A stretch of 64,000 nucleotides of DNA from Bacteroidota bacterium (GTDB lineage Bacteria > Bacteroidota > Bacteroidia > AKYH767-A > 2013-40CM-41-45), in contig JAPLDA010000010.1 of assembly GCA_026391945.1 (NCBI GenBank), positions 28,582 to 92,581 on the forward strand, read 5' to 3'. The translations under genes and the position numbers were made by a program. Under the pieces are notes generated by a model. That model did no database searches. It had not been told where the DNA came from and saw nothing but the letters and a program-made list of their open reading frames with translations. Shown piece after piece: positions 40,301 to 57,322 of the stretch. How positions within the stretch are numbered: position 1 is the stretch's first letter; each line of letters starts with the position of its first letter.

Positions 40301-42092
40301 TAAAACCTCAGAGGCAAAAAAAATATTTAGTCAAATTTCTAACACCATAAAGGAAACCAATTCTTTGTTAAAAAAAATGCCTGATGCGGGTATCGATATT
40401 TATAAGGAAGCCATCAAGGATCTTTTGAACAATTCAATATTCAAAGGTCTTTATTCCTATCATTTAAATATGACGCAGGATCAATTGCACTCCATCGCTC
40501 AAAGTGCTGGTTTGCAAATTCCACCTGGCAGCTCCTTTGAATCTGCTGCAAGAAGAGTTCTTTTACGAAGTTATCCTTCACTTATTGATTCCGCTTCAAA
40601 TACAACCAGTGGCGCAATTGTTAATGCCGCATCCTTTTTGGACAGCGGAGATAAATTAAAGTTGGGCGGAGAAGCATTTAAATTATTGAATAAAATTGGC
40701 GACAAGTCATCCATTGGTCCAACATTAACACTTGATTTTCTGAATGATTTACAATATGGCGCAAAGGATGCACTGGCGGTCTTAGATGCCTGCAAACTGC
40801 TCAGCTATGCTTCTGCTTATATGGTTGGTGTGGATGCATTTTGTGAAAATATGCGAGATGAATTCAGAGTGCCTCGTCTTTCATTTAGCCCGGATCTTCC
40901 AACTCCGTCAAACCGGAATACTGTTTTACCATTGAACCGTGTTTTACGATCAAGTACGGCTCCATATCTCGACAGTCTTGTAACTTTTTATAATGCAAAT
41001 TTAGATAGCGTGATAACATTGATTCAGAATCATAGTGATTCATTGGCTATCGTTGATGGAATACAATTGCTTCAACAAGACTCTGTACTCGACAGGACGT
41101 TTCATGTTGCAACAGTGGACATCTCGGCTACCGCGGGCACTGCACAAGATTCCATCGCAGGCTTTGATGCTCTTTATTTCCATATGCTGGATGATTTTAA
41201 TTCATCAATAACAAAAAGAAAAGCAGTTGCATTGGGTCTTTTTGCATGGACGTTGGATACAGTCCCTTCTTCCTTGTTTATTGATACCCTGGTACAATAT
41301 GCAAATGATGCAAAACAAAATAATAATTCTGCATTGCAGTCGTTCCGGCATATTGACAGCATCACCGCCGGACTTATCCTCCCTCTTCATGTTATGATTA
41401 CCTACATTGATGGCCAGGAAGAAGTTAATAAAGGAGATACTTCAATCATCACTATTTCTTATACGAATTATGGAACAGATACTGCTCACAATGCAACTCT
41501 GATTATTCACTTTACCAGTGGTTTTCAAACACCTTCTGATACTTTGTTCATTGGTGACATTCCTCCCGGGACATCGGGATCCTTACCAATACCAGTGCTG
41601 GCACCGCAAACGGATGTTATTAGCGTGTATAATTTAGAAATGAAATTATCAAATGGAGAAGGCGATTTTGAATCGGATGTCATCGAAACAAAAAATTTAG
41701 AGATATGCAATAACAACATCGATGATGATTACGATGGGCTGGTTGATGAAGGCTGCACTTCCATACTGAACCTGAAATTATTCATTGAGGGTCTCTATAT
41801 CGGCAAAGGAAAACTTCAGCCATTGCTTCAAAACTGCAGCGTTCTGAATGATTCCTCCATTGCAGATTTTATTACTGTTGAGTTGCATGATGCGGTGCAA
41901 TTGGATTCCATTTATTATATGAAGAAAATATATTTGCATACCGATGGTACGGCTACCTTATTTATTCCTTCCGAGTTGTGGAATCGGTCGTACTACATTG
42001 TAATTCATCATCGGAATTCACTTGAAACATGGAGCAAGAATCCCTTTTACATGACCAGTGAAAACCATGTGCTGAATTTAACGGAACAGTGA
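37392..42092 (+). CDS. Large multidomain secreted surface protein (1566 aa)
   Basis: Signal peptide MKKLIVLLCVLLYQNLPAQ. The first 580 residues are repeated beta-rich segments without a family I can name. About 580-725 looks like a PPC-type jelly roll (DQTVWFYFIAPPSGKLTIH, LALYKASSC-like, ANYWLQVDG). About 735-780 is a carboxypeptidase-regulatory-like fold (LEGAKVKAYY...TDVNGQFNFTHL). About 800-1180 is helical. Then a CARDB-like domain (VNKGDTSIITISYTNYGTDTAHNATL), a MopE-like metal motif (CNNNIDDDYDGLVDEGC) and a C-terminal module (LNLKLFIEGLYIGKGK...YYIVIHHRNSLETWS) that I recall from other Bacteroidota surface proteins. No type IX sorting tail follows. Codons are visibly A+T-richer than in flanking genes, a possible sign of transfer. 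Confidence 0.8.
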   Translation: MKKLIVLLCVLLYQNLPAQNPHVVIENVKSPVGPCQKGVCDVAFYLPTSLQDNVLGVRIQTLTGATLFSTQSPSFNGANIDCYINGADTNCIDAWGYNVSQPVVKGIPYHNTSVANQTINLRLSIHPNSPSDSIQYSETTLVTTDNTGGFSTTVGVGASNTPGNSWNTINWNNVNYLVAEIDVTGGGTFIPLNFELLNNMRSALFRINGLNPGQYLIEPFIHHFGNIQPYNILPSNMITIFPTLTSGNITVQVDSIHLPTDGCTTDGYFSFAYSYDGVTNSDDYRPPILTTYWEGKADTSANDSFPYYRSNFTNGHLVAGGVSSHSLVNYQISEPGFNSVLGSFPFLAPAPVHPGHPQIQINFDYPLKENTINNQTTFTITSAEECISQATYHITGPGIDRMVISPPGNNGHTATYGAYGFPLPVTRNASYHISATYMVGGEYQARYGPYFIVDTIIQGPDVIDPCDGSTFFSVDNVTTYQHLDGKIHVYNGPTFYDPNDPTWTAYLYPSDTTLGARASQHGNLFDNLSFENLEGGKYWVKSVYTKTDGSNNPDGICEKWIGPITVLDLNDNVCNPIYLSMGLSGPFSNVAATTEVNEPHPPQGNCTGQMGWCSDIDQTVWFYFIAPPSGKLTIHRNPNLRSWDSQMALYKASSCNDILNGNYILVAANDDFNNGMNASLGPLDLVPGANYWLQVDGRGNTEESNWGLWLEEPTLVADIRIDTVLGKVIYVPLEGAKVKAYYQGSATPDDSTLTDVNGQFNFTHLLPNRIYTLKIHYTASEGIGQQIYSDYEYPNYKISDAVGTIGLPYSMLLQVRRLLNTIREKPDYEITYAYGWLDPSTLTDESRPHYDVTEIDTLINHWRSIDKTIAKDVVDNLGRVYIATKACDLLSNNAYELSKIPGKSLSEFAIAIIDLGTFSDLIKKIANDNASSSFNKFGIASKFLGEIAAATLSFSLKSAELITKKISEQSKTSEAKKIFSQISNTIKETNSLLKKMPDAGIDIYKEAIKDLLNNSIFKGLYSYHLNMTQDQLHSIAQSAGLQIPPGSSFESAARRVLLRSYPSLIDSASNTTSGAIVNAASFLDSGDKLKLGGEAFKLLNKIGDKSSIGPTLTLDFLNDLQYGAKDALAVLDACKLLSYASAYMVGVDAFCENMRDEFRVPRLSFSPDLPTPSNRNTVLPLNRVLRSSTAPYLDSLVTFYNANLDSVITLIQNHSDSLAIVDGIQLLQQDSVLDRTFHVATVDISATAGTAQDSIAGFDALYFHMLDDFNSSITKRKAVALGLFAWTLDTVPSSLFIDTLVQYANDAKQNNNSALQSFRHIDSITAGLILPLHVMITYIDGQEEVNKGDTSIITISYTNYGTDTAHNATLIIHFTSGFQTPSDTLFIGDIPPGTSGSLPIPVLAPQTDVISVYNLEMKLSNGEGDFESDVIETKNLEICNNNIDDDYDGLVDEGCTSILNLKLFIEGLYIGKGKLQPLLQNCSVLNDSSIADFITVELHDAVQLDSIYYMKKIYLHTDGTATLFIPSELWNRSYYIVIHHRNSLETWSKNPFYMTSENHVLNLTEQ

Positions 42093-42433: not shown

Positions 42434-43924
42434 ATGAATCAGAACTCAGCGAGTAAATCATCGTTACCTGTTTTAATTTCAGTTTTCTTTTTCTGGGGAT
42501 TTGTCGCAGCATCCAATGATATCCTCATCCCGGTGTTCAAGGAAAAACTCAACCTGGAACAATGGCAGAGCCAGCTGATTTCCGTTGCGTTTTATGTGGC
42601 CTACACGGTGGGATCCATCATTTATTTTTTGGTTTCAAAAGCAACGGGCGGTGATATCCTCAACAGGATCGGGTACAAAAACGGAATTGCTTTCGGCCTC
42701 GTGTTTTCAGCACTCGGTACGTTGTTGTTTTACCCGGCAGCCATGACTTCTTCTTTCGGGTTAATGATCAGCGGGTTGTTTGTCGTCGGACTCGGATTTT
42801 CATTGCAGCAAACCGCCGCCAACCCTCTTGCCATCAACATCGGTGATCCTAAAAAAGGTTCGCAACGACTCAGTCTTGCCGGCGGAATCAACAACATCGG
42901 TACCACCATCGGTCCCGTGATTGTGAGCTTAGCCATTTTCGGATCATTGAAAGCCGGGGCCAAACTTGAAAACCTCGAATCGGTTAAGACGCCGTATTTA
43001 TTTTTAGGAGCAGCGTTCTTAATCGTCGCAGCCATTTTTAAATTCTCTTCGCTGCCGAACAAAATCATTCATGAAGAAGAGACAAGTGCTGCGTCTTCAA
43101 AATACCTGCAAAGAAAAAGTGCGCTCAACTATCCTCAGCTCTGGCTCGGCATGATCGGAATTTTTTTGTACGTAGGCGTGGAAGTCTCCACCGCTTCCAA
43201 CCTCCCGGAGTTCATGCGTCAGCATCTTCATACAACCACCGACCAGGTCGCTCCTTATGTTTCACTCTTCTGGGCGAGTTTGATGATCGGACGATGGTCG
43301 GGAGCCGTAGGCGCATTTGATTTGAAAAAAGGAACCAAACAAATTCTTCGTTTCTTTCTGCCTTATGCTGCCTTCGCTGTGTTTTTATTTGTGAATTTCC
43401 TGGCGAACCACGACCTGGAACCATTCTATCTTTATTTCTTCGTGATTATCGCCATCATCATCGGAGATATTTTAAGCAAAGGAAATCCTGCGCGGCAACT
43501 CGTCATTTTTTCTGCACTTGGAATTACTTCGCTGATCATCGGAATTCTTTCTGACGGAATGGTGAGTGTGTATGCATTCATCAGCGTCGGGTTATTTTGT
43601 TCCACACTCTGGCCCTGCATTTTTACATTGGCCATTGCCGGGTTAGGCAAACGCACCAACGACGGTTCCAGTTTTCTCATCATGATGATCATGGGCGGTG
43701 GTTTGGTGAGCTGGCTCCAGGGTTACCTGGCGAAGGATGATTTGCTTGGCATTCAATGGAGTTATTTAACCGGTGTTTTTTGTTTTGCTTACCTCGCTTT
43801 TTACGGATGGAGAGCAAGACAAATTTTAAAACTGCAGGGAATTGATTACGATGTTAAAATGAATTCCGACCCGTTGGATTCTCCAGGAGCATCACAGGCC
43901 GGTGTTCTGCAAAGTGAAATCTAA
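42434..43924 (+). CDS. FucP/NagP-type sugar:proton symporter (MFS)
   Basis: 496 residues, about 12 membrane helices. FFFWGFVAASNDILIPVFK at the start and GLGFSLQQTAANPLAINIG in helix 4 region are signatures of the fucose/glucose-galactose/GlcNAc permease branch of the major facilitator superfamily. Characterised relatives move fucose (FucP), glucose/galactose (GluP) and GlcNAc (NagP of Shewanella). In this locus GlcNAc or fucose are the likeliest cargo, since both are released by neighbouring enzymes; this is inference. First gene of the 15-kb plus-strand glycan locus, 23 bp ahead of a sugar kinase. Confidence 0.87.
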   Translation: MNQNSASKSSLPVLISVFFFWGFVAASNDILIPVFKEKLNLEQWQSQLISVAFYVAYTVGSIIYFLVSKATGGDILNRIGYKNGIAFGLVFSALGTLLFYPAAMTSSFGLMISGLFVVGLGFSLQQTAANPLAINIGDPKKGSQRLSLAGGINNIGTTIGPVIVSLAIFGSLKAGAKLENLESVKTPYLFLGAAFLIVAAIFKFSSLPNKIIHEEETSAASSKYLQRKSALNYPQLWLGMIGIFLYVGVEVSTASNLPEFMRQHLHTTTDQVAPYVSLFWASLMIGRWSGAVGAFDLKKGTKQILRFFLPYAAFAVFLFVNFLANHDLEPFYLYFFVIIAIIIGDILSKGNPARQLVIFSALGITSLIIGILSDGMVSVYAFISVGLFCSTLWPCIFTLAIAGLGKRTNDGSSFLIMMIMGGGLVSWLQGYLAKDDLLGIQWSYLTGVFCFAYLAFYGWRARQILKLQGIDYDVKMNSDPLDSPGASQAGVLQSEI

Positions 43925-43947
43925 GCAAGGGCGGACGGAACTTAACC

Positions 43948-44919
43948 ATGATGCAACAGTTAGTAGCGGGAATTGATATTGGCGGAACGAATACTTACTT
44001 CGGGTTGGTGAATCGCAATGGAAAAATTCTGTTGACAGGTTCGGTACGAACGACAGACTTTCCTGAACCAAAAGAATTAGTTAGCGCGGTTTCGAAAAAG
44101 ATACAGATACTCGTTGCCGACTGCCAGATGAAGACTGCCGAATACAAACTTGCCGGTGTCGGAATCGGTGCGCCAAACGGAAATTATTTCAACGGCTCCA
44201 TCGAATTTGCTCCGAACCTGAAATGGAAAGGAGTGGTTCCGCTTGCCGAATATTTCAAAGCGCAGCTAAATGTCCCGGCCGTCCTCACCAACGATGCAAA
44301 CGCAGCGGCGTTGGGAGAAATGTATTTCGGCGGAGCGAAGGGAATGAAGGATTTTATTTTCATCACACTCGGAACAGGCCTGGGCAGCGGCATCGTCGTA
44401 AACGGACAGATGGTTTACGGTCACGATGGTTTTGCCGGTGAACTGGGACATACGATCATCATCCAGCATGGCCGGCAATGCGGCTGCGGAAGAAAAGGTT
44501 GTCTCGAACAATATTGTTCCGCTTCCGGAATTGTCAAAACTTATTTTGAAATTCTGAAAAGCGAAAATCCCGATGCCATGGAAAACATCAATCGGTCTTT
44601 AGTGGATTCAAAATATATTTATGACAAAGCAATGGGCGGTGATGAAGACGCATTCTATGCTTTCAACTACACAGGTGAACTCTTAGGTTTTGCTCTCGCC
44701 AACAGTGTCGCCTACACAAGCCCCGAAGCGATTTTTCTTTTTGGCGGACTCGCACAGGCCGGTGAATTGCTTTTCAACCCGGTAATTTTGAGTTTCGAAA
44801 AAAATCTTTTGCATAACTATAAGAACAAAGTAAAAGTCCTGCCTTCTTCACTTCCTGAAAATGATGCGGCTATTTTGGGCGCGGCGTCTTTGATCTGGAA
44901 CGAGTTGAAGATTGAATAA
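43948..44919 (+). CDS. ROK-family sugar kinase
   Basis: 323 residues. ATP loop AGIDIGGTNTYFGLV, catalytic region LTNDANAAALGE, GTGLGSGIVVNG, and the zinc motif GRQCGCGRKGCLEQYCS, with the CxCGxxGCxE pattern of ROK proteins. ROK kinases phosphorylate glucose, GlcNAc, ManNAc or fructose; the sugar cannot be told from motifs. Paired with the permease it would trap an incoming sugar in the cytoplasm, GlcNAc being the natural guess here. No helix-turn-helix domain, so it is an enzyme and not a repressor. Confidence 0.9.
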   Translation: MMQQLVAGIDIGGTNTYFGLVNRNGKILLTGSVRTTDFPEPKELVSAVSKKIQILVADCQMKTAEYKLAGVGIGAPNGNYFNGSIEFAPNLKWKGVVPLAEYFKAQLNVPAVLTNDANAAALGEMYFGGAKGMKDFIFITLGTGLGSGIVVNGQMVYGHDGFAGELGHTIIIQHGRQCGCGRKGCLEQYCSASGIVKTYFEILKSENPDAMENINRSLVDSKYIYDKAMGGDEDAFYAFNYTGELLGFALANSVAYTSPEAIFLFGGLAQAGELLFNPVILSFEKNLLHNYKNKVKVLPSSLPENDAAILGAASLIWNELKIE

Positions 44920-44937
44920 TGAAAATTGAATAATGAA
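44911..44937 (+). repeat. 14-bp tandem repeat spanning the kinase stop and hexosaminidase start
   Basis: ATTGAATAATGAA occurs at 44911-44923 and again at 44925-44937. The first copy supplies the kinase TAA (44917-44919), the second the ATG of the hexosaminidase (44933). Confidence 0.85.
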
Positions 44938-47233
44938 GATAGCGAAAGGGATATTGGTGACATTTTTTTTTCCTGTGATTTTTTTTTCACAGGCGCAAAC
45001 GGCAACCTCCGTCAGCAATCTTTTTCCGTTGATTCCCAAGCCGGTTTCATTCAAAGCTTCGGAAGGAAAATTTCCGCTTTCTAATAAAACCATTATTGTT
45101 GCAGATAGCTCATCTATACCGGATGTTGAAATTTTCAATTTACAGCTTGAGAAAATCTATGGCTTTTCACTCCCGGTTTTTCTTCCCGGTCAACATGTTC
45201 ACGAAGATGGTGTCATCAGTGTTTCCCGGCAAACAAAGCAACTGATTCCTAAGGATGGATATGAATTGTCCGTTCATCAGAAATTAATTTCATTGAATGG
45301 AAAAGATGCCGGAGTTTTTTATGGTTTCCAGACCTTGCTTCAACTCATCATTCCCGGAATGGAAAAAACAGATTCAATTCCCTGTTGCGAAGTAAAAGAC
45401 TCACCACGGTTTCCATGGCGGGGAATGCACCTCGATGTGTGCCGGCATTTTTTTTCGAAAGAGTTTATAAAAAAATACATCGACCTCATCGCCTTGTATA
45501 AAATGAATACGTTTCACTGGCATCTCACCGATGACCAGGGCTGGAGAATCGAAATAAAAAAATATCCGAAACTTATTGAGACAGGATCATGGCGCAATGG
45601 TTCCATGGTGGGCGCCTACAGCAACGGGCAGTTCGACAGCATCCGCTATGGCGGATATTATTCTCAGGATGATATCCGGGAAGTGGTTGCGTATGCAATG
45701 CAACGACATGTCACGATCGTTCCGGAAATAGAAATGCCCGGCCATTCACTTGCCGCTCTTGCTTCTTACCCGGAGTTGTCATGCACCGGCGGGCCGTTTG
45801 AAGTGGCGAAGGCATGGGGCGTGTTTGATGATGTGTATTGCCCGAAGGAAGAAACATTCCAGTTTGTTGAAAATGTATTGAGCGAAGTGTGTGACCTGTT
45901 TCCCGGGAAATACATTCATGTCGGTGGTGATGAATGTGCAAAGGTTCGCTGGAAAAATTGTGAACATTGCCAAAAGCTGATGAAAGAAAAAAAATTGAAA
46001 GATGAAAACCAGTTGCAGAGTTATTTCATTCGTCGTCTTGAAAGATATCTTCACTCCAAAGGAAAACAACTGATCGGCTGGGATGAAATCCTCGAAGGCG
46101 GACTCGCTCCCGGCGTCACCGTGATGAGTTGGAGAGGAACGGAAGGCGGCATCATAGCGGCGAAACAACATCATGATGTCGTGATGACTCCCGGGTCGCA
46201 TTGCTACTTCGATTATTACCAGGGCAGCCCCGATTACGAACCGCTCGGCATCGGTGGTTACACAACCGTTGAAAAGGTATATTCCTATGAACCTGTTCCG
46301 GCAGAGCTGTCTTCTGAAAATAAAAAATACATCCTCGGTGCGCAGGGAAATGTGTGGACGGAATATATACAGACGCCCTCCCAGGTTGAATACATGGCTC
46401 TGCCCCGCATGTGCGCACTGGCGGAAGTGTTGTGGTCACCAAAGGAAATGAAAAAATATTCTGAATTTCAGAACCGTCTCATCCGCCATTTTTCATTGCT
46501 GGATAAACTGAATGTGAACTATGCAAAAACAATTTATGAATTGAAAACATCTGTCAAACCATTGGAAAATGGTAACGGTATTTCATTCGGGTTGACATCA
46601 CCATTTACTTCCGGGAATATATTTTATACCATGGATGGAAGCGATCCGGCGGCGGAATCAGTTTTATATACTCAACCGGTTTCCATTGTAAAAAGTTGTA
46701 AAGTGAAAGCCGCTTACTTTGAAGATGGGCAACGAAAAGGAAATACTCTTTCACAGGAATTTTTTGTGAGTAAATCCACAGGGAAAAAGATCAAGCTGAA
46801 TATTCCTCCTCATGAAAATTATTTCTGTAATGGTCCGCAATCACTTGTGGATGGCATCAAAGGCGATCTTCACAAACACGGACAAAACTGGCTCGGCTGG
46901 TGGGGAAAGGATATGGTCGCTGAAATTGATCTTGGTAAAAAGGAAACATTTTCAAAGATCTCCCTGGATGTTTATGACGGAGAAGCCAGTTGGATTTATT
47001 TGCCTGTGAGTATTGAAATTTTGATTTCAGATGATGGTGACCAGTTTTCATCCATTAAAAAATTATCGTCAGAAGAAATTAAAAAATTTAACGGAGCGAT
47101 TGAAATTCAAACAGGGAATCAATCAGCAAGATTTGTGAAGGTAATTGCAAAAAATGCGGGAAAGATTCCCGATGGAAAACAAGGATCAGGAAACGACGCA
47201 TGGTTATTCGTGGATGAGATTTCCGTTGAATAA
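44933..47233 (+). CDS. Beta-N-acetylhexosaminidase, GH20
   Basis: 766 residues, exported (signal peptide to about AQTATS). An N-terminal GH20b domain (IPKPVSFKASEGKFPL) is followed by the catalytic barrel with FHWHLTDDQGWRIEIKKYP and the catalytic Asp-Glu pair in HVGGDECAK. C-terminal to this are a CHB_HEX_C-like domain (IFYTMDGSDPAAESVLYTQPV) and a discoidin/CBM32-like domain (FSKISLDVYDGEASWIYLPVSIEILISDDG). It removes terminal beta-GlcNAc or GalNAc, here probably the antenna GlcNAc of N-glycans. It starts 13 bp after the kinase stop. Confidence 0.94.
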   Translation: MKIAKGILVTFFFPVIFFSQAQTATSVSNLFPLIPKPVSFKASEGKFPLSNKTIIVADSSSIPDVEIFNLQLEKIYGFSLPVFLPGQHVHEDGVISVSRQTKQLIPKDGYELSVHQKLISLNGKDAGVFYGFQTLLQLIIPGMEKTDSIPCCEVKDSPRFPWRGMHLDVCRHFFSKEFIKKYIDLIALYKMNTFHWHLTDDQGWRIEIKKYPKLIETGSWRNGSMVGAYSNGQFDSIRYGGYYSQDDIREVVAYAMQRHVTIVPEIEMPGHSLAALASYPELSCTGGPFEVAKAWGVFDDVYCPKEETFQFVENVLSEVCDLFPGKYIHVGGDECAKVRWKNCEHCQKLMKEKKLKDENQLQSYFIRRLERYLHSKGKQLIGWDEILEGGLAPGVTVMSWRGTEGGIIAAKQHHDVVMTPGSHCYFDYYQGSPDYEPLGIGGYTTVEKVYSYEPVPAELSSENKKYILGAQGNVWTEYIQTPSQVEYMALPRMCALAEVLWSPKEMKKYSEFQNRLIRHFSLLDKLNVNYAKTIYELKTSVKPLENGNGISFGLTSPFTSGNIFYTMDGSDPAAESVLYTQPVSIVKSCKVKAAYFEDGQRKGNTLSQEFFVSKSTGKKIKLNIPPHENYFCNGPQSLVDGIKGDLHKHGQNWLGWWGKDMVAEIDLGKKETFSKISLDVYDGEASWIYLPVSIEILISDDGDQFSSIKKLSSEEIKKFNGAIEIQTGNQSARFVKVIAKNAGKIPDGKQGSGNDAWLFVDEISVE

Positions 47234-47237
47234 CCAG

Positions 47238-47301
47238 CCCATGGCTTCAGCCGTGGGATAAAAAACGATTTCTAATCGTGGGATAAATCGATTTCCAATC
47301 G
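47238..47301. repeat. Three small tandem hairpins with GTGGGATAAA spacers
   Basis: CCCATGGC-TTCA-GCCGTGGG, then CGATT-TCT-AATCG and CGATT-TCC-AATCG, each hairpin followed by GTGGGATAAA or GTAAAAAA. The last two form a 25/23-bp imperfect direct repeat (47253-47277, 47278-47300). The first hairpin begins 4 bases after the GH20 stop. Confidence 0.8.
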
Positions 47302-47337
47302 TAAAAAAAAAGATTTCAATGATTTAACAATATTATC

Positions 47338-48318
47338 ATGACAACAAGAAGAAGTTTCATCAAATGGTCGGCGTTGAGCGCAGCCATGGTATCGGTACGT
47401 AATTCTTCCGCAAAAAAATTTTCTATTCCATCTTCGGTAACAAAACCAATCGTGATCTCTACCTGGAAACACGGACAGGATGCCAATGTGGACGCCTGGA
47501 AAATCCTCTCTGCTGGAGGACGTGCATTGGATGCCGTCGAAAAAGGAGTGATGGTTACAGAAGCCGATCTCAGAAACTTAAGTGTCGGTCTTGGCGGTCT
47601 GCCCGACCGTGACGGCCATGTAACGCTCGACGCCTGCATCATGGATGAATGGGCGAACTGCGGCTCCGTTGCTTTTCTGGAACACATCAAACATCCCATC
47701 TCCATAGCGCGGTTGGTGATGGAAAAAACTCCTCACGTGATGCTCGTCGGCGAAGGCGCGCTGAAGTTTGCGTTGGATCATGGTTTCAGCAAAGAAAAAT
47801 TCGACCGTACACCGGAATCAGACAAAGCGTGGAAAGAATGGCTGAAGAAAGCGGAGTACAAACCCATCGTCAATTTTGAAAATCACGATACGATTGGAAT
47901 GGTGGCCATGGATGTGAATGGAAATCTTTCAGGAGCCTGCACCACCAGCGGCATGGCGTACAAACTGCACGGACGAGTGGGCGATTCGCCGATCATCGGC
48001 GCGGGATTGTATGTGGACAATGAAGTTGGTGCGGCAACAGCTACGGGAACGGGCGAAGAAGTGATTCGTATTTGCGGAACACATCTCGTAGTGGAATTGA
48101 TGCGCCAGGGAAAATCTCCGGAAAATGCCTGTCGTGAGGCCGTGGAACGTATTGTAAAAAAACAACCGGAGAAATCGAAGAATCTCCAGGTAGGTTTTCT
48201 TGCACTCAATAAGAACGGTGAGTACGGAGCGTATTGCCTGCAGACCGGTTTTAACTATGCCGTTTATTCCAACGAAATAAAAAATGAAATGATCGACGGA
48301 AAAAGTTTTTACAAATAA
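47338..48318 (+). CDS. N4-(beta-N-acetylglucosaminyl)-L-asparaginase (glycosylasparaginase)
   Basis: 326 residues, Ntn hydrolase that cuts the GlcNAc-Asn bond left when an N-glycan has been trimmed. Tat-like signal TTRRSFIKWSALSAA suggests export to the periplasm in folded form. STWKHGQDANVDAWKILSAGG and LDACIMDE are family features, and self-cleavage should occur before the threonine of HDTIGMVAMD, making it the nucleophile. GVGDSPIIGAGLYVDN-type text (RVGDSPIIGAGLYVD) lines the active site. It sits between GH20 and cutC in the glycan locus. Confidence 0.94.
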   Translation: MTTRRSFIKWSALSAAMVSVRNSSAKKFSIPSSVTKPIVISTWKHGQDANVDAWKILSAGGRALDAVEKGVMVTEADLRNLSVGLGGLPDRDGHVTLDACIMDEWANCGSVAFLEHIKHPISIARLVMEKTPHVMLVGEGALKFALDHGFSKEKFDRTPESDKAWKEWLKKAEYKPIVNFENHDTIGMVAMDVNGNLSGACTTSGMAYKLHGRVGDSPIIGAGLYVDNEVGAATATGTGEEVIRICGTHLVVELMRQGKSPENACREAVERIVKKQPEKSKNLQVGFLALNKNGEYGAYCLQTGFNYAVYSNEIKNEMIDGKSFYK

Positions 48319-48351
48319 TAGTTAACGTAATACAGGTTTCATTTCATCAAC

Positions 48352-49029
48352 ATGGCCGGAATCAAAATTGAAATTGCCTGCTTCAATCTTCAGTCAGCAC
48401 TGATCGCTGAGCATGCCGGTGCTGATCGTATTGAGCTTTGTGAAAATTATGAAGCCGGTGGAATCACGCCTTCTTACCAGGTTATTGAAGAAGCAAAAAA
48501 AAATATTTCTGTTCCCGTTTTTGTCATGATCAGGCCAAGGGCGGGAAATTTCATTTATTCTGATGACGAGTTTGAGCAGGTGGGAAAGGATATTCAATTC
48601 TGTAAAAAGCTTGGAATGGATGGCGTTGTTTTAGGATTGCTGAACCCCGATGGAAGCATTGATACCTCACGTACAAAAAAGCTGGTTGAACTGGCTGCAC
48701 CGATGCCGGTTACTTTTCATCGTGCATTTGATGTTTCAGATCATCCGTTCGATGCAATGGAAGATCTCATCACCTGTGGATGCAAACGGATACTTACTTC
48801 CGGTCACAGTGAGACCGCCATCGGTGGAAAAGAATTAATTACGCAACTCATCAGACAAGCAAATGGGAAAATCATCATTCTTCCAGGTGGCGGAGTGCGA
48901 TCAGGAAATATTCCTGAGTTATTAAAGACAGGAGCAAGGGAGTTTCATTCATCGGCCATCAACAAAGAAACATGGCTGGCTGATGAATTGGAAATAAGAA
49001 AAATCAAGCGGGAATTGGCTGGAAGATGA
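48352..49029 (+). CDS. cutC: CutC family protein
   Basis: 225 residues, TIM-barrel family called copper homeostasis protein CutC. IKIEIACFNLQSALIAEHAGADRIELCENYEAGGITPSY is the family N-terminus, followed by VFVMIRPRAGNFIYSD, VTFHRAFDVSD and LPGGGVRSGNI. No signal peptide, so cytoplasmic. Evidence for a copper role is weak in general, and here the gene lies 33 bp behind the glycosylasparaginase inside a glycan-degradation locus. A part in handling a released sugar or its product is possible but not shown. Confidence 0.92.
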   Translation: MAGIKIEIACFNLQSALIAEHAGADRIELCENYEAGGITPSYQVIEEAKKNISVPVFVMIRPRAGNFIYSDDEFEQVGKDIQFCKKLGMDGVVLGLLNPDGSIDTSRTKKLVELAAPMPVTFHRAFDVSDHPFDAMEDLITCGCKRILTSGHSETAIGGKELITQLIRQANGKIIILPGGGVRSGNIPELLKTGAREFHSSAINKETWLADELEIRKIKRELAGR

Positions 49030-49041
49030 ACCTGCAGTAGC

Positions 49042-49049
49042 TATCTTTG
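49042..49049 (+). promoter_or_regulatory. Candidate internal -7 element before the first fucosidase
   Basis: TATCTTTG is an exact TAnnTTTG match 24 bases before the GH29 ATG. The nearest TTG (49015-49017) is 24 bases upstream, a little far. The fucosidase-mannosidase half of the locus may have its own start point. Confidence 0.38.
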
Positions 49050-49072
49050 CGATGATTAATTTATATTGATCT

Positions 49073-50374
49073 ATGAAACGAATCATCCTCCTGTTTTTCT
49101 TTTTTGTTTCCATCCGTGTTTTTTCACAGGAAAATAAAATGCAATGGTTCGCCGATGCCAAACTCGGCATCTTCATTCATTGGGGAATTTATTCGGTGAA
49201 TGGCATTGATGAAAGCTGGTCGTTCTACAATAAAAAAATTTCTCATGCTGATTACATGAAGCAACTCAGCGGCTTCACGGCTTCTGAATATAAACCTCAT
49301 GCATGGGTTGAACTGATAAAAAGGAGCGGAGCACGGTACGCCGTCATTACCGCAAAGCATCATGACGGTGTCGCTTTGTGGAATACGCAGATGAATGAAC
49401 TGAGTGTGCCGAAAAAAACTCCTGCTGCAAGCGATGTGTTGAGTCCGTTTGTACATGCGCTGAGGGAATATGATATTAAAGTCGGAACTTATTTTTCGCT
49501 GATCGACTGGTCATATTCTGATTACACCGGGTTCCTGAAAGATTCATCACGGTATGATTCGAAAAAAGATCCGGAAAGATGGAAACGCTTTACCGGTTTC
49601 TGCATGGGACAAATCAGCGAGATCAGTTTGCAGTTTAATCCTGATTTATTCTGGTTCGACGGCGACTGGGAACACAGTGCAGAAGAATGGCTCGCTCCTG
49701 AAATCCGGAAAATGATTTTGGATCATAACCCGGAAACCATCATCAATGGCCGGTTACAAGGCTACGGAGATTATGATACACCTGAGCAGAATTTCCCTGT
49801 GACAAAGCCGAATTTAAAGTATTGGGAACTCTGCATGACCATTAACGATAACTGGGGCTACCAGCAGCGTGATACGAATTACAAAACGCCGTATGAAATC
49901 ATTTCCATTTTTGCCGATGCTATTTCCATGGGAGGAAACCTGTTGCTCGACATTGGCCCGAAAGCCGATGGTTCGATTCCGAAGGAACAGGAATACATGC
50001 TCACCGAACTTGGCCAATGGACAGGCAAACACAGTGAAGCTATTTTCAATACGATTGCAGGTTTACCGCACGGGCATTTTTACGGGCCAACGACTTTATC
50101 AAAAGATTCTCTCATACTTTATTTATTTCTACCCGCAAAAACATCGGGTGATGTGGTCATCAAAGGACTCGATACAAAAATTAAACGTGTTTCTGTTGTT
50201 GGCAGCAATGAACAACTGCCTGTAAAAATTGTCGGAAAAATATCGTGGAGCAAGGTTCCGGGATTGGTGTACATTCATGTTCCGGAGCCATCAACGGATC
50301 GGTACATGACTGTTTTAAAAGTTGATCTTGAAAACCCGGTCAGGTTGTATAGTGGAAAGGGTGGATTCAATTAA
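49073..50374 (+). CDS. Alpha-L-fucosidase, GH29 (first copy)
   Basis: 433 residues with signal peptide (MKRIILLFFFFVSIRVFSQ). MQWFADAKLGIFIHWGIYSVNG is the GH29 N-terminus, ITAKHHDGVALW follows, and LFWFDGDWEHS carries the nucleophile aspartate. GNLLLDIGPKADGSIP closes the barrel, after which there is a short beta domain. It removes alpha-linked fucose in the periplasm or outside. A second GH29 with clearly different sequence follows after 36 bp, so the two may prefer different linkages, such as core against antenna fucose. Confidence 0.93.
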   Translation: MKRIILLFFFFVSIRVFSQENKMQWFADAKLGIFIHWGIYSVNGIDESWSFYNKKISHADYMKQLSGFTASEYKPHAWVELIKRSGARYAVITAKHHDGVALWNTQMNELSVPKKTPAASDVLSPFVHALREYDIKVGTYFSLIDWSYSDYTGFLKDSSRYDSKKDPERWKRFTGFCMGQISEISLQFNPDLFWFDGDWEHSAEEWLAPEIRKMILDHNPETIINGRLQGYGDYDTPEQNFPVTKPNLKYWELCMTINDNWGYQQRDTNYKTPYEIISIFADAISMGGNLLLDIGPKADGSIPKEQEYMLTELGQWTGKHSEAIFNTIAGLPHGHFYGPTTLSKDSLILYLFLPAKTSGDVVIKGLDTKIKRVSVVGSNEQLPVKIVGKISWSKVPGLVYIHVPEPSTDRYMTVLKVDLENPVRLYSGKGGFN

Positions 50375-50410
50375 TTTTTGTTTTCAAAATAAAATAAAAA
50401 AATATCCGGC

Positions 50411-51823
50411 ATGAAATTTTTTCAGAAAACCTCCATCTTCATTTCCTTTTTTTCTTTACTCACCGCTGTAGTTAACGGGCAGGAAAAATATTATCCACCT
50501 TCTGATTCACTGGTCATCAAAAGACTTGCATGGTGGAGCAACATTAAATTTGGTTTGCTGATGCATTGGGGAACTTATAGCCAGTTGGGAATTGTGGAAA
50601 GCTGGAGTCTTTGCCCGGAGGATGAAAACTGGACACAACGCAAAGGTCCGTATTCAGAAAATTATTTTGATTACAAAAGGAATTATGAAAATCTGAAAAC
50701 CACGTTCAATCCTGTTAAATTCAATCCGGAGAAATGGGCGAAGGCAGCGAAGGATGCGGGAATGAAGTACGTCGTATTCACTACGAAACATCACGACGGG
50801 TTTTGTATGTTCGACACAAAGGAAACGGATTATAAAATCACCGATAAAAATTGTCCGTTCAGTAAGAATGAAAAATCAAATGTGACGAAAGAAGTGTTCA
50901 GTGCTTTCAGGAAAGAAGGTCTTGGCGTGGGAGCTTATTTTTCAAAACCCGATTGGCACAGCGATGATTACTGGTGGAAGTATTTTCCGCCGATGAACCG
51001 TAACGTGAACTATGACACGAAGAAATACCCGGAGCGATGGAAGAAGTTTGAAGAGTTTACCTTCAACCAGATGAAAGAGTTGATGACCGATTATGGAAAG
51101 GTGGACATCCTCTGGCTCGATGGCGGCTGGGTTCGTCCCGATTCCACCGGCAAAGAAGGTTTGTGGACGCAGCAACTCAACATGCATCGCATCGGGGAAA
51201 TGGCACGATCACTTCAGCCCGGTATCATCATGGTGGATCGCGCGGTCGAAGGATATTACCAAAACTACCTCACGCCGGAACAGCAGGTGCCGGAAAAACC
51301 GCTTGCTTACCCGTGGGAAACCTGCATGACGATGGCCACTTCGTGGAGTTATGTTCCCAATGATGTTTACAAACCGGCCAATAAACTGATTCATCTGCTT
51401 GCTAAGGTCGTTTCCCGCGGAGGAAATTTTCTGCTGAACATCGGCCCCGGTCCGGATGGTGACTGGGATGCTGTCGCTTATTCACGTTTGAAGGAAATCG
51501 GTGACTGGATGAAAGTGAATGATGAAGCCATCTATGAAACGCAACCTGTTCCACCATATGAATCCGGTAAAATTGTTTTTACGTCAAAGAAGGATGGAAC
51601 TGTTTATATGATTTATCTTGCAGAAGAAAATGAAACCATTCTTCCCGGTGAAATTTCATTCAGCGGAATTGCTCCGCGGGCAAATACCGTCGTGAAATTG
51701 CTGGGAACCAATTTGAATTTCAGGTGGAAGGAAGAAAACGGGATCGTCAAAATTAAAATACACGAAAAGTTAAGAACACAAATTCCCTGCAGGCATGCCT
51801 GGGTGTTTACATTCAAAAAATAA
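50411..51823 (+). CDS. Alpha-L-fucosidase, GH29 (second copy)
   Basis: 470 residues with signal peptide (FISFFSLLTAVVNGQ). LAWWSNIKFGLLMHWGTYSQLG, VFTTKHHDGFCMFDTKETDYK, the nucleophile aspartate in VDILWLDGGWV, and GGNFLLNIGPGPDGDW define GH29. The loop contents differ from the upstream GH29: a longer insert with PPMNRNVNYDT and a YLTPEQQVPEKP segment. That points to another acceptor specificity. Its stop overlaps the start of the GH2 gene (TAATGA). Confidence 0.93.
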   Translation: MKFFQKTSIFISFFSLLTAVVNGQEKYYPPSDSLVIKRLAWWSNIKFGLLMHWGTYSQLGIVESWSLCPEDENWTQRKGPYSENYFDYKRNYENLKTTFNPVKFNPEKWAKAAKDAGMKYVVFTTKHHDGFCMFDTKETDYKITDKNCPFSKNEKSNVTKEVFSAFRKEGLGVGAYFSKPDWHSDDYWWKYFPPMNRNVNYDTKKYPERWKKFEEFTFNQMKELMTDYGKVDILWLDGGWVRPDSTGKEGLWTQQLNMHRIGEMARSLQPGIIMVDRAVEGYYQNYLTPEQQVPEKPLAYPWETCMTMATSWSYVPNDVYKPANKLIHLLAKVVSRGGNFLLNIGPGPDGDWDAVAYSRLKEIGDWMKVNDEAIYETQPVPPYESGKIVFTSKKDGTVYMIYLAEENETILPGEISFSGIAPRANTVVKLLGTNLNFRWKEENGIVKIKIHEKLRTQIPCRHAWVFTFKK

Positions 51824-54405
51824 TGATGAGAAAAAAAATCAGTTCAATGCGAATTCATTTCATGATGACAGGCAGGAAGTTCATTTTCTTTTGCATACTG
51901 TTGTTTATTTCTTCTGCCGCCTTTTCCCAGGCACAGACGAAATATCTTTCCGGTGAAAATAATTCTGCCTGGCAATGCCGGAAACAGGGAGATGAAAAAT
52001 GGCGGCCTGCCAATGTTCCCGGGACCGTTCATACGGATTTGCTGAGTAATCATCTCATCGATGATCCGTTTTATTCAGATCATGAAAAAAAACTGCAATG
52101 GATTGACACCTGCAACTGGGAATACGCGACCTCGTTTGATTGCGACTCCGCTTTGTTTAACAGCAGTCATGTTGAACTTCAGTTTGACGGACTGGATACC
52201 TACGCGAAAGTATTTCTGAACGATGTCCTCATTCTCACGGCTGACAACATGTTCCGTTCATGGAATGTGAATTGCAAAAGTTTGCTGAAGGAAAATAACA
52301 ATCGCCTCGTCATACAGTTTGAATCTGCTGTAAGAAAAGGAAAAACCCTTGCGAAGAATTTACCTTACACATTGCCCGGCGATGAAAAAGTATTTACCCG
52401 CAAAGCGGCTTACCAGTATGGCTGGGATTGGGGTCCGCGCTTTGTGACCTGTGGAATCTGGCGGCCGGTAAAAATTGTTTCGTGGGATTTTTTCAGGATC
52501 AATGATATTCATATTATTCAGGATGAACTGGCAGACACCGCTGCCAGTCTCGTGGCGGAAGTGAATGTGAGCGCCGATGAAGCCACCACGGTTTATTTTA
52601 AAATGGTTTTGGAAAATGATTCACGCGATTCCATGTACTTTGAACAACCCATTCGCAAAGGCGATAACATTCTCAACCTTCCTTTCAAAATTAGAAATCC
52701 GAAACGATGGTGGTGCAATGGATTGGGAGAACCTTTCCTGTACCACCTGTCGGTTCAGTCAACCAACGTTTTTGCAAAATCAGAGACAAAAAATTTTGAA
52801 ATCGGTTTGCGCACGTTGCAACTCGTCCAAGACGCTGATTCAATCGGGAGAAGATTTTATTTTAAACTCAACGGGATTCCTGTTTTTATGAAAGGCGCCA
52901 ATTACATTCCGGCTGATAATTTTCTTCCGCGTGTTTCTGAAAATGGGTACAAAGAAATGATACAGTCGGCTGCTGATGCCAACATGAACATGCTGAGAGT
53001 GTGGGGCGGCGGCATTTATGAGGATGATGCGTTTTATAAACTCTGTGACGAAAATGGAATACTTGTCTGGCAGGATTTCATGTTTGCCTGTTCGATGTAT
53101 CCTGGCGATTCTTTGTTCCTGGATAATGTGAAAGAAGAAGCAACGCAAAATGTAATGAGATTAAGGAATCATCCTTGTTTGGCTTTGTGGTGCGGCAACA
53201 ATGAAATGGATGAAGGATGGAAGAACTGGGGATGGCCGAAACAGTATCATTATTCTGAAAAAGATTCTGCAAAAATCCGGAATGATTACGAGAAGATATT
53301 TATGGATGTGTTGAAAGGAGTCGTGGAAACGAATGATGGCCTGCGTTCCTACTGGCCGTCATCACCATCCATCGGCTGGGGACATGATGAAAGTTTGCGT
53401 GAAGGAGATTCTCATTACTGGGGAGTTTGGTGGGGAAAGGAACCTTTTGAAATGTATCAATCAAAAGTCGGGAGGTTTATGAGTGAGTATGGTTTCCAGG
53501 GGATGCCTTCACTGGAAACATTTAAAAAATTCTGCGATGCAAAAGATTGGTCACTGACTTCTGCCGCTGTAAAAAATCACCAGAAGCATCCGACTGGTTA
53601 CGAAACCATTCAATCGTACCTGGAAAAAGATTACAGGCAACCGAAGGATTTTGAAAACTACATTTATGTGTCTCAGCTGTTGCAGGCAGAAGGAATGAAG
53701 ACTGCCATCGAAGCTCACCGTAAATCAAAACCAACTTGCATGGGTACGTTGTACTGGCAGCTCAATGACTGCTGGCCGGTTACATCCTGGAGCAGCATGG
53801 ATTATTTTGGGAATTGGAAAGCGCTTCATTATACTGTGAAGAAGGCATTCAGCAAATTCCTGGTGACTGCCGAGAAGAAAGGGGAGAACCTCGTGGTGTA
53901 TGTAAGTTCCGATCAGCCAGGAAATCTTTCAGCAAAATTCAAGCTGAAGCTCATTGACTTCAACGGGAACATTCTCTGGGGAGATTCCGGAAATATTTCC
54001 GTTGCCTATGAAAGTGCTGCGAAGATTTACATGATCCCCCTGAAAGAGATTCTGACGAATGTTCAGCCAGCGCGGGTCTTTTTAAAGATGGTTGTTGAAA
54101 AAGATAAAAATGTGCTGACGGAAAACCTGTTTTATTTTACCGGGCCGAAAAACCTGATGCTTGATAAAACAGATATTCAATATGTATTTTCTAAAACGAA
54201 AGACAACCGGCAAGCCGTCACCGTTTCATCAAAAACATTTGCGAAAAATGTGTTCATTGATTTTGGAGATGCGAACGTAAAACTGAGTGACAATTATTTT
54301 GATTTGCTTCCCGGTGAAAAGAAAACCATTACCGTTCAAAATTCCATGTCATCAGAAGAACTCGCCAGGAAAATAAAAATAAAATCCCTCATCGACAGTT
54401 ACTGA
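51823..54405 (+). CDS. Beta-mannosidase, GH2
   Basis: 860 residues. N-terminal signal peptide after a basic stretch (FIFFCILLFISSAAFSQ), a jelly-roll sugar-binding domain, an Ig-like domain, then the barrel with acid/base glutamate in LWCGNNEMDEG and nucleophile glutamate in FMSEYGFQGMPS. The NNEMDEGW form and the GWDWGPRF motif are typical of beta-mannosidases. In N-glycan breakdown this enzyme removes the core beta-mannose from chitobiose. Starts within the end of the second fucosidase gene. Confidence 0.93.
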   Translation: MMRKKISSMRIHFMMTGRKFIFFCILLFISSAAFSQAQTKYLSGENNSAWQCRKQGDEKWRPANVPGTVHTDLLSNHLIDDPFYSDHEKKLQWIDTCNWEYATSFDCDSALFNSSHVELQFDGLDTYAKVFLNDVLILTADNMFRSWNVNCKSLLKENNNRLVIQFESAVRKGKTLAKNLPYTLPGDEKVFTRKAAYQYGWDWGPRFVTCGIWRPVKIVSWDFFRINDIHIIQDELADTAASLVAEVNVSADEATTVYFKMVLENDSRDSMYFEQPIRKGDNILNLPFKIRNPKRWWCNGLGEPFLYHLSVQSTNVFAKSETKNFEIGLRTLQLVQDADSIGRRFYFKLNGIPVFMKGANYIPADNFLPRVSENGYKEMIQSAADANMNMLRVWGGGIYEDDAFYKLCDENGILVWQDFMFACSMYPGDSLFLDNVKEEATQNVMRLRNHPCLALWCGNNEMDEGWKNWGWPKQYHYSEKDSAKIRNDYEKIFMDVLKGVVETNDGLRSYWPSSPSIGWGHDESLREGDSHYWGVWWGKEPFEMYQSKVGRFMSEYGFQGMPSLETFKKFCDAKDWSLTSAAVKNHQKHPTGYETIQSYLEKDYRQPKDFENYIYVSQLLQAEGMKTAIEAHRKSKPTCMGTLYWQLNDCWPVTSWSSMDYFGNWKALHYTVKKAFSKFLVTAEKKGENLVVYVSSDQPGNLSAKFKLKLIDFNGNILWGDSGNISVAYESAAKIYMIPLKEILTNVQPARVFLKMVVEKDKNVLTENLFYFTGPKNLMLDKTDIQYVFSKTKDNRQAVTVSSKTFAKNVFIDFGDANVKLSDNYFDLLPGEKKTITVQNSMSSEELARKIKIKSLIDSY

Positions 54406-54406
54406 C

Positions 54407-57322
54407 ATGAAAAAACTAATCAGTTCTTTATTCCTTATTCCTTATTCCTTATTCGTCAGTGCACAGGCCGATTATGCAAAGTACGTCAATCCATTCATCG
54501 GCACCGGTGGTCACGGACATACGTACCCGGGAGCAACCACACCGTTTGGAATGGTTCAGCTATCGCCGGATACGCGCATTGACGGAAGCTGGGATGGTTG
54601 TGGCGGATACCATTACAGCGACAGCATCATCTATGGTTTTTCGCATACTCATTTAAGCGGAACCGGTTGTTCTGATTACGGTGACATCATGCTGATGCCA
54701 ATAACAGGCGAACCATCGCTGGATAATAAAATTTATTCATCGAAATTTTCCCATGCCGATGAAACAGCTTCTGCAGGATATTACTCAGTGAAAATTGATA
54801 AGGGTGATGTTCTGGTTGAACTCTCTTCCACTACCCGCGTCGGAATGCATCGTTATACATTTGCGAAAGCAGGTGATGTGTCGGTTGTGCTGGACCTTAC
54901 GCATCGTGATAAATTGCTCGAAGGAAAAATTCACGCCGTGAACGCCACCACTTTTGAAGGGTTGAGAAGATCAGAAGCATGGGCGAAGGATCAGTGGGTT
55001 TTTTATCGCATTGAATTTTCAAAACCGGTGACCTATTCATTCATCGATAAAAAAGGTGGCAATGATCAGAAAGCATGGTTCAAATTCAACCTGAAAAAAA
55101 ATGAAAAACTATTGGTGAAGGTTTCACTTTCCTCTGTCAGTGAAGAAGGAGCGAAGAAAAATATGGAAACCGAACTTCCTCATTGGGATTTTGACAAAGT
55201 AAAAAAGGAAGCACGCGATGCCTGGCAAAAGGAACTTTCAAAAATTGAAGTGAGCGGTGGAACAGAAGAACAATTCAAAATATTTTACACGGCTCTTTAT
55301 CACACCATGGTTCAGCCGAATATTTACAACGATGCGGACGGACAATACCGTGGCCGTGATTTGAAGGTTCACAAGGCGGAAGGTTTCAATTACTACACGG
55401 TGTTTTCATTGTGGGATACGTTCCGTGCCTGGCATCCGCTCATGACGATCATCGACCGGAAGAGAACGCTTGATTACATCAAAACATTTCTGACACAATA
55501 TGAACAGGGCGGATTGTTACCGGTGTGGGAATTATCATCCAACGAAACAGAATGCATGATCGGTTATCATTCCGTCAGCGTCATTGCTGATGCTGCGATC
55601 AAGGGAATCAACGGCTTCAATATGGAAGAAGCCTTTGAGGCTATGAAAAAAAGCGCCGATTCGAAAGTGCGCTATGGGCTTGGTGCCTATATGGAAAAAG
55701 GTTGTTTAAGCGTGGAAGATGAATCGAACTCCGTTTCAAAAACGCTGGAGTATGCGTATGATGACTGGTGCATTGCACAGATGGCTCAACTCCTTCATCA
55801 CGATAAGGATTACGAACGATACATGGAACGTTCGCAGTCATGGAAAAATCTTTTCAATCAGGAAACAGGTTTTATGCGACCCAAAAAAAACGGTGGATGG
55901 CTCAAACCGTTCGATCCGTTTGAAGTGAATAACAATTACACGGAAGCAAATGCTTTTCAATATAGTTTTTTTGTGCCGCAGGAAATTGCAGGCTACGGGA
56001 AGGCGATTGGCGGTGATCAGGATTTTGAAAAAAAATTGGATGAACTATTTGCTGCTGAAAGTAAAACCACTGGCCGTGATCAGGCTGACATTACAGGAAT
56101 GATCGGGCAGTATGCGCATGGTAACGAGCCAAGCCATCACATGGCGTATTTATACAATTACATTGGCAAGCCCTGGAAGACTCAGGAAAGAGTCAGGAAG
56201 ATTCTCACGGAATTTTATCATGCAGCTCCCGATGGATTGATCGGCAATGAAGACTGCGGACAAATGAGTGCATGGTATGTGATGAGCGCCATGGGATTGT
56301 ACCAGGTTTGTCCGGGTTATCCGGCCTTTGATATTGTACCACCATTATTTCCTGAAATTAAATTGAATTTGGAGAGTGGTAAAAAACTTATGATCAAGGT
56401 GAATGGAGAAAATAACAGCTACTCATACATCAGGAATATTCAGTTTAAAAAAGATCCGGCGTATCCGAATACCATCATACCCTATGAAATGGTGATGGCT
56501 GGTGGTAACTTAAATTATTTTCTTGAATCCGATCCCTTGAAAACATCTGAAGATAAAAATCTCCAGTCGCATTATGCCGGAATGAATTCATCGTTTTTAT
56601 ATTCAATAATTGAGAATCCGGTGATCACTGCATCGGATCTTAAATTTCATGATTCAATTTTAGTGAGCGTTACTCCTTATGCGAAAGATGATCAGCTGTA
56701 CTACTCGGTATCCGGTGCCGGTTATGATACATCATTTAAAATTTATGCCGGGCCATTTTGTATTGATGCATCATCGCGAATAAAAGTATTTTCAAAAAGC
56801 AAAACGGAACTCAAAAGTAAAATGGTCACCGCTAATTTCTACAAGAACCCTCATCCCGGTTGGAAGATGAATCTTGTTTCAAAATATTCAAACCAGTACA
56901 CCGCTGGTGGTGATGAAGGTCTCATCGATGGAATCCGCGGCGATGTTGACTGGCAGAAAGGAAACTGGCAGGGTTATCAAAACGATTTTGAATGTGTGAT
57001 TGATTTGGGAAAGGAACAAAACATAGGAAGTTTTTCCGCCGGTTTTTTACAGGATGTCCGCGCATGGATACTGATGCCGAAAAAGGCGGAGTTCAGTTTT
57101 TCAACGGATGGAATAAATTATTCTGATCAAACCATGATCAGGAATACAGTGCATGATTCTGATTATACCACGCAAACAAAAGATTTCCGTACCATGTTAA
57201 TCCGTCCTGTGAATGCGCGTTACGTAAAAGTGAAAGCGGAGAACTACGGTAAACTTCCTGAATGGCATGCCGGGGCAGGAGGACAGGCATGGATTTTTAT
57301 TGATGAGATTTCTGTTCAGTAA
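54407..57322 (+). CDS. Alpha-mannosidase, GH92, with a C-terminal carbohydrate-binding-like domain
   Basis: 971 residues with signal peptide (LISSLFLIPYSLFVSAQ). NPFIGTGGHGHTYPGATTPFGMVQLSPD is the GH92 N-terminus, FSLWDTFRAWHPL lies in the middle and GNEDCGQMSAWYVMSAMGLYQ contains the catalytic glutamate. GH92 enzymes are calcium-dependent exo-alpha-mannosidases, often alpha-1,2. The last 160 residues (DGIRGDVDWQKGNWQGYQNDFECVIDLG) form a discoidin-like domain that also appears in the GH20 of this locus, suggesting shared targeting. Last gene of the locus. Confidence 0.94.
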   Translation: MKKLISSLFLIPYSLFVSAQADYAKYVNPFIGTGGHGHTYPGATTPFGMVQLSPDTRIDGSWDGCGGYHYSDSIIYGFSHTHLSGTGCSDYGDIMLMPITGEPSLDNKIYSSKFSHADETASAGYYSVKIDKGDVLVELSSTTRVGMHRYTFAKAGDVSVVLDLTHRDKLLEGKIHAVNATTFEGLRRSEAWAKDQWVFYRIEFSKPVTYSFIDKKGGNDQKAWFKFNLKKNEKLLVKVSLSSVSEEGAKKNMETELPHWDFDKVKKEARDAWQKELSKIEVSGGTEEQFKIFYTALYHTMVQPNIYNDADGQYRGRDLKVHKAEGFNYYTVFSLWDTFRAWHPLMTIIDRKRTLDYIKTFLTQYEQGGLLPVWELSSNETECMIGYHSVSVIADAAIKGINGFNMEEAFEAMKKSADSKVRYGLGAYMEKGCLSVEDESNSVSKTLEYAYDDWCIAQMAQLLHHDKDYERYMERSQSWKNLFNQETGFMRPKKNGGWLKPFDPFEVNNNYTEANAFQYSFFVPQEIAGYGKAIGGDQDFEKKLDELFAAESKTTGRDQADITGMIGQYAHGNEPSHHMAYLYNYIGKPWKTQERVRKILTEFYHAAPDGLIGNEDCGQMSAWYVMSAMGLYQVCPGYPAFDIVPPLFPEIKLNLESGKKLMIKVNGENNSYSYIRNIQFKKDPAYPNTIIPYEMVMAGGNLNYFLESDPLKTSEDKNLQSHYAGMNSSFLYSIIENPVITASDLKFHDSILVSVTPYAKDDQLYYSVSGAGYDTSFKIYAGPFCIDASSRIKVFSKSKTELKSKMVTANFYKNPHPGWKMNLVSKYSNQYTAGGDEGLIDGIRGDVDWQKGNWQGYQNDFECVIDLGKEQNIGSFSAGFLQDVRAWILMPKKAEFSFSTDGINYSDQTMIRNTVHDSDYTTQTKDFRTMLIRPVNARYVKVKAENYGKLPEWHAGAGGQAWIFIDEISVQ

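Follow-up and report, generated by a model that had tools for sequence, protein, structure and literature searches.

N-glycans are the sugar trees on proteins of animals, plants and fungi, and the question raised by the locus considered here is whether nine adjacent genes of a Bacteroidota genome could together take such a tree apart down to the GlcNAc-Asn link, and what a CutC-family protein would be doing among them. The locus occupies positions 42434-57322 of the window, i.e., the whole stretch of 64,000 nucleotides that was analyzed. Its nine open reading frames all lie on the plus strand, with gaps, from the permease to GH92, of 23, 13, 104, 33, 43, 36, -1 and 1 bp, and all nine products scored above the curated Pfam cut-offs, in line with the earlier description of same-strand genes of named families separated by about 120 bp or less (observed range -1 to 104 bp). 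The locus is best read as a module for the exo-acting degradation of N-glycans and glyco-asparagine in the periplasm, to which we assign, from sequence, a probability of about 0.78.

The first gene (42434..43924) encodes a predicted inner-membrane MFS sugar permease of the GluP/FucP/NagP group (Pfam MFS_1), whose matches to the NCBIfam gluP, fucP and nagP models remained below cut-off and which is 69-79% identical to the syntenic copy in most of the relatives retaining that gene. It is followed by a ROK-family sugar kinase (43948..44919; Pfam ROK, 215 bits), with ROK glucokinases as the closest solved structures and regulators and ManNAc kinases next; by eye, its translation retains NDANAAALGE and the Cys-cluster motif CGCGRKGCLEQ. 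The GH20 β-N-acetylhexosaminidase (44933..47233; Pfam, 418 bits) has an F5/8-like C-terminus and contains, again by eye, the catalytic motif HVGGDE. Beyond a 104-bp spacer (47234..47337) lie the glycosylasparaginase (AGA; 47338..48318) and the CutC-family TIM-barrel protein (48352..49029; Pfam CutC, 235 bits), and then two GH29 α-L-fucosidases: the closest solved structures of the first (49073..50374; Pfam, 283 bits) are 6gn6/9eu1-type fucosidases, well above the 1,3/4-specific ones, and those of the second (50411..51823; Pfam, 318 bits) are 6gn6 and 9eu4. A GH2 β-mannosidase with mannosidase Ig domains (51823..54405; Pfam Glyco_hydro_2_N2, Mannosidase_ig and Ig_mannosidase), in whose translation GNNEMDEG and SEYGFQG were recognized by eye, and a GH92 α-mannosidase with a C-terminal F5/8 domain (54407..57322; Pfam, 584 bits; NCBIfam aman2_put, 665 bits) complete the set.

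The GH20-AGA spacer folds into a strong hairpin (fold z = -2.72) at 47238-47257, CCCATGGC-TTCA-GCCGTGGG, with perfect 8-bp arms, two more imperfect repeats after it and a single copy within the window. It may represent an attenuator, a processing site or a repeat element, and could divide the nine genes into separate transcripts. Promoter and terminator scans returned site numbers no higher than in shuffles, and no regulator pointing to an inducer was recognized by Pfam among the nine genes. On the 5' side of the locus, the window encodes a secreted protein of 1566 aa with no family above cut-off (37392-42092); at 62247-63077 an ORF with a BRO-N domain, common in phages, adjoins a TetR/HlyD/MFS efflux set.

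Export signals were called by simple sequence rules and not by a dedicated signal-peptide predictor; they assign Sec-type N-terminal signals lacking a lipobox to GH20, both GH29, GH2 and GH92, a Tat-like motif (TRRSFI) to AGA, and no export signal to the ROK kinase and CutC. A Tat-like motif was likewise present in 63 of 75 AGAs, and a hydrophobic N-terminus in none of 106 CutCs. Since no type IX secretion tail was found on any enzyme of the locus by Pfam and profile searches, the Sec- and Tat-like signals point to the periplasm, and the predicted compartments are thus periplasmic for six enzymes, inner-membrane for the permease and cytoplasmic for two proteins.

The glycoside hydrolase families involved have broad specificities. 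From the gene families, export signals, conserved gene order and CutC-AGA association, all of which are readable in the sequences, we infer the substrate, the order of the steps, the compounds transported and phosphorylated and any activity of CutC as follows. Proteases, and possibly PNGase F-like proteins, would first act at the cell surface, and the products would probably be taken up into the periplasm by TonB/SusCD-like receptors from other loci. There GH92 would take off α-mannose, GH2 the core β-mannose, GH20 the outer core GlcNAc and GH29 the core fucose, leaving the Tat-exported AGA to convert GlcNAc-Asn to aspartate and 1-amino-GlcNAc, a product which decays to GlcNAc (PMC6960285). 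The MFS permease may then import a released sugar (GlcNAc or mannose), the ROK kinase may phosphorylate it, and cytoplasmic CutC may act on a pathway product after import. The NagA model TIGR00221, which may miss a divergent form, matched nothing in this genome and only one of 61 related genomes, so that the scheme lacks a recognized enzyme for GlcNAc-6-P, a point against it. In the same 61 genomes the NagA model is rare although GlcNAc-releasing enzymes are common. The idea that CutC stands in for a missing NagA was weakened, the model being absent from 60 of the 61 relatives with or without CutC, so that a missing match carries little information.

The step at the protein-linked end depends on the identity of AGA. 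Its best solved relative is the crystallized Elizabethkingia glycosylasparaginase 3ljq (454 bits), the human AGA chains match it at about 94-95 bits each, and isoaspartyl peptidases/asparaginases reach at best about 143 bits (2zak). The NHDTIGM stretch of its translation, including the HDTIGM autoprocessing/nucleophile site, aligns with the start of the β-chain and keeps the Thr nucleophile, features by which the protein appears to be a genuine glycosylasparaginase (EC 3.5.1.26) and not an isoaspartyl peptidase. A second gene, 37% identical to it and of isoaspartyl-peptidase grade, lies on another contig (C7), which suggests that the two functions are distinct in this genome. AGA enzymes require free α-amino and α-carboxyl groups on the asparagine (PMC6960285); the peptide would therefore have to be degraded first, and the substrate of the last step would be a glyco-amino acid and not a glycoprotein.

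The arrangement is not restricted to this genome. The search for AGA relatives covered 61 genomes of the class, and for many of the hits the surrounding 20 kb or so was examined. The gene order MFS-ROK-GH20-AGA-CutC-GH2-GH92, complete or partial, is found again in further genera of the same family (L033, L035, L036, L037, L038, L064), and a second family of the same taxonomic order has the variant MFS-GH20-GH2-GH92-AGA-CutC (L046, L047, L051, L053, L054). Where AGA lies elsewhere in the genome, the remaining genes still form MFS-ROK-GH20-CutC-GH2-GH92 (L128) or GH20-CutC-GH2 (L131, L132), and L135 retains CutC-GH2-GH92. Further instances are GH92-x-AGA-CutC-GH2-GH125-GH92 in Pedobacter arcticus (L198), GH125-AGA-CutC in Pontibacter silvestris (L180), with genes of SusC/SusD size and a GH29 fragment nearby, and MFS-ROK-AGA-CutC with GH20, and in some cases GH92, in Chitinophaga (L141, L148). 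Such recurrence in other genera indicates that the arrangement is not due to chance. The comparison with relatives that the earlier note had called for thus recovered the order across genera, with the exception of the GH29 pair, absent from the position between CutC and GH2 in every relative examined, so that the capacity to remove fucose seems to have been added locally, or lost elsewhere. The enzyme set, the conserved order and an AGA that is true by sequence are together consistent with the stepwise exo-digestion to GlcNAc-Asn originally put forward.

The earlier note proposed no role for CutC, which the comparison of genomes brings out as the most informative gene of the locus. Among 198 Bacteroidota genomes drawn evenly from the phylum, with AGA counted at E ≤ 1e-40, CutC occurred in 61, and every one of these 61 also carried AGA; 45 genomes had AGA alone and 92 neither gene (Fisher p = 1.7e-25 with a stricter AGA list, kinship uncorrected). 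Within the window's class this sample held 41 genomes with both genes, 8 with neither and none that were discordant. The class sample of 61 genomes gave the same picture, as 30 of the 30 with CutC above cut-off carry a true AGA (at least 53% identical); six have AGA without CutC. Within a single genus (g47), both genes are present in six genomes and both are missing from three, a pattern that speaks against simple shared ancestry. The two genes lie within 400 bp of each other in 30 of the 61 CutC genomes of the even sample (26 pairs on the same strand, 4 divergent), and AGA invariably lies 5' of CutC. Of 79 CutC loci from named genomes, 43 have AGA and 5 have GH2 as the immediate neighbor, but this set was ordered by resemblance to a profile headed by the window CutC and is biased towards its relatives, and the evenly drawn figure is therefore preferred. 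On a tree of 105 CutC proteins, no fewer than 14 changes are required to account for the distribution of AGA adjacency, which implies that the pairing was gained or lost repeatedly; the association holds even where both genes are far apart. A literature search for CutC and glycosylasparaginase together gave no paper.

Strong as it is, the link does not hold everywhere. That CutC implies AGA in all bacteria was ruled out by genomes with CutC and without AGA, namely Chitinibacter, Janthinobacterium, Iodobacter, Cloacimonadota and Chloroflexi MAGs and a Mycolicibacterium MAG, and, inside Bacteroidota, two rumen Bacteroidales and one Chitinophagaceae MAG; in several further genomes the only relatives are at 35-47%, and the E. 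coli, Caulobacter and Lactococcus controls carry CutC. The family may accordingly have more than one role, or its substrate may also arise from other routes. Where AGA is not adjacent, CutC may adjoin a gene for GH2, for a GH125 mannosidase (beside CutC in L205, and within the AGA-CutC region of L198 and L180) or for a PNGase F-domain protein. In an Ignavibacteriae MAG (L182 9980-12439) a protein with the PNGase F C-terminal domain is encoded 3 bp downstream of CutC, and in a rumen Bacteroidales MAG (L173 8970-10678), in whose genome no AGA was found, CutC overlaps a type I L-asparaginase gene. Other neighbors are an M81 (MlrC-like) metallopeptidase, a C69 dipeptidase, a transglutaminase-like protein and NeuB; the first three kinds occur at L189 3254-5403, L213 9977-12319 (assigned from the N-terminus of the neighbor alone), L188 2938-5483 and L165 9989-13361.

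The model of the window CutC (pLDDT 97) superposes on human CutC with a Foldseek TM of 0.94, and the protein is about 36-42% identical to the human (3iwp) and Shigella (1twd) structures, with the same fold. Invariant residues are Glu7, Arg26, Glu28, Cys30, Arg61, His123, Arg124, Asp127 and His199 (window numbering), and the Glu, Arg, His and Asp among them look enzymatic. Beyond the family the nearest folds found by Foldseek are MJ1099 (MfnB), the PLP synthase Pdx1 and thiamin phosphate synthase, TIM barrels with phosphate substrates, which suggests a substrate of the phosphosugar type for CutC as well. We tentatively propose, at somewhat less than even odds, that CutC works in the cytoplasm as an enzyme on some product of GlcNAc-Asn or N-glycan breakdown, downstream of the exported AGA, the MFS permease and the ROK kinase, perhaps on phosphorylated or glycosylamine GlcNAc or on a mannose derivative.

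The CutC family is widespread, also in humans, and has long been annotated as a copper homeostasis protein. An alternative that takes this annotation at face value would make CutC a copper protein or a bystander, which travels with AGA for reasons unrelated to glycan use, such as the shared ancestry of a successful gene block. The AGA-free CutC genomes, Chitinibacter, Janthinobacterium, Iodobacter and the Chloroflexi MAG among them, and the presence of CutC in E. coli, Caulobacter and Lactococcus speak for this, but the explanation appears rather less likely than not given the complete accompaniment by AGA in both Bacteroidota samples (61 of 61 and 30 of 30), the joint presence or absence within a single genus, the persistence of the association at a distance with GH2, GH125 or PNGase F-domain genes as alternative neighbors, the cutC and asparaginase genes reported in the nix region of Xanthomonas, and the enzymatic look of the invariant residues. 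The E. coli cutC region also encodes the small RNA MicL (PMC8216713), which makes cutC deletion phenotypes in that species harder to read.

Other explanations concern the substrate and the supply of the module. GH20, GH29, GH2 and GH92 are each known from other glycan pathways, and chitin fragments, mannan, microbial exopolysaccharide or other mannose-, GlcNAc- or fucose-containing material might be degraded instead; a conserved true AGA within the block and the combination of β-mannosidase, GH92 and AGA in several families render this improbable. With nearly an even chance, on the other hand, the locus is the periplasmic half of an ordinary two-locus system, in which the organism's own PNGase F-like proteins release N-glycans or glycopeptides, a distant SusC/SusD-like system imports them, and AGA merely clears GlcNAc-Asn from proteolysed glycoproteins. 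In agreement with the earlier note, Pfam recognized neither SusC/SusD nor an endo-enzyme (GH18, GH85, PNGase) among the nine locus genes, but their absence does not characterize the organism, whose genome encodes two proteins of family PF12771, two PNGase F-like proteins and one secreted GH18 with a type IX tail (profile search). The main SusD family PF07980 had no match in the genome, and a statement that the genome lacks SusD, based on that family alone, was dropped because PF12771 (SusD-like_2) matches twice. On contig C61 (79.4-89.0 kb; L124 8889-18458) a SusC-like receptor (CarbopepD_reg_2 and Plug domains), a SusD-like_2 protein and a LamG protein bearing a type IX tail are encoded on one strand in an apparent operon, together with a PNGase F homologue. 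In this last protein two LamG domains accompany a PNGase F domain, which matches PNGase F over nearly its full length (126 bits). This gene row, the second SusD-like gene, a second secreted PNGase F-like protein with a type IX tail on contig C22 (L123 7187-10618) and the 16 TonB plug domains of the genome speak for such a division of labor. In the C22 protein the part bearing Asp60 is split from the rest of the fold by about 520 residues, including a LamG domain. Against the two-locus arrangement stands the catalytic site, as alignments show that Asp60 and Glu206 are conserved in both homologues, with Gln replacing the catalytic Glu118 (PNGase F numbering), a substitution that leaves PNGase F with about 0.1% activity (PMC9102325); the two proteins may therefore be weak, altered or binding-only. 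If the homologues were active, free glycans would bypass AGA, a point against the main reading. Of the two sources of pre-cut substrate envisaged in the earlier note, other bacteria or a distant locus, the genome favors the latter.

Returning to the periplasmic exo-degradation module, the wider interest lies in CutC. In Bacteroidota its presence predicts a glycosylasparaginase without exception in two genome samples, and its neighbors in other genomes suggest that it helps to use the product of the enzyme cutting the last sugar-protein bond. The association turns the question of CutC function into a specific, testable one and, if the link reached beyond bacteria, would bear on human CUTC too.

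Bacteroidota polysaccharide utilization loci for N-glycans combine SusC/SusD with periplasmic trimming. The locus shares their enzyme families but is devoid of SusC/SusD and of an endo-enzyme, with two SusD-like genes located elsewhere. Human lysosomal N-glycoprotein breakdown relies on AGA, FUCA1, MANBA and HEXA/B, and thus, as proposed here, on AGA and not an endo-enzyme at the protein-linked end, with GH29, GH2 and GH20 counterparts; its α-mannosidase is instead a GH38, whereas the present system would use a GH92, operate in a bacterial periplasm and be linked to CutC. In the Lactobacillus casei alf-2 cluster, whose mutants demonstrate the use of fucosyl-GlcNAc-Asn (PMC6960285), an MFS permease, a GH29, a glycosylasparaginase and a ROK kinase are likewise clustered for a core N-glycan glyco-amino acid. 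However, the AGA of that cluster is cytoplasmic, lacks a signal and acts after import, whereas the locus AGA has a Tat-like signal, and alf-2 serves a single small substrate, with no mannosidases or GH20 and no CutC among the listed genes. The nix/nag N-glycan clusters of Xanthomonas, a genus of another phylum (Boulanger, Dupoiron), as far as summarized in PMC5700972 and PMC6718126, share the exo-enzyme set with hexosaminidase, β-mannosidase, α-mannosidase and fucosidase. According to the same summaries, nix includes a TonB receptor and a larger number of enzymes, whereas the present locus has no receptor and builds in MFS and ROK; they place a cutC (XAC3091), filed under copper, in the nix cluster, with an asparaginase (XAC3092) as the neighboring locus tag. 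The locus adds a further compact cluster for N-glycan exo-degradation to an already described kind; the known members of the CutC family (human 3iwp, Shigella 1twd) have been discussed as copper proteins, whereas here cutC is embedded in a putative N-glycan operon.
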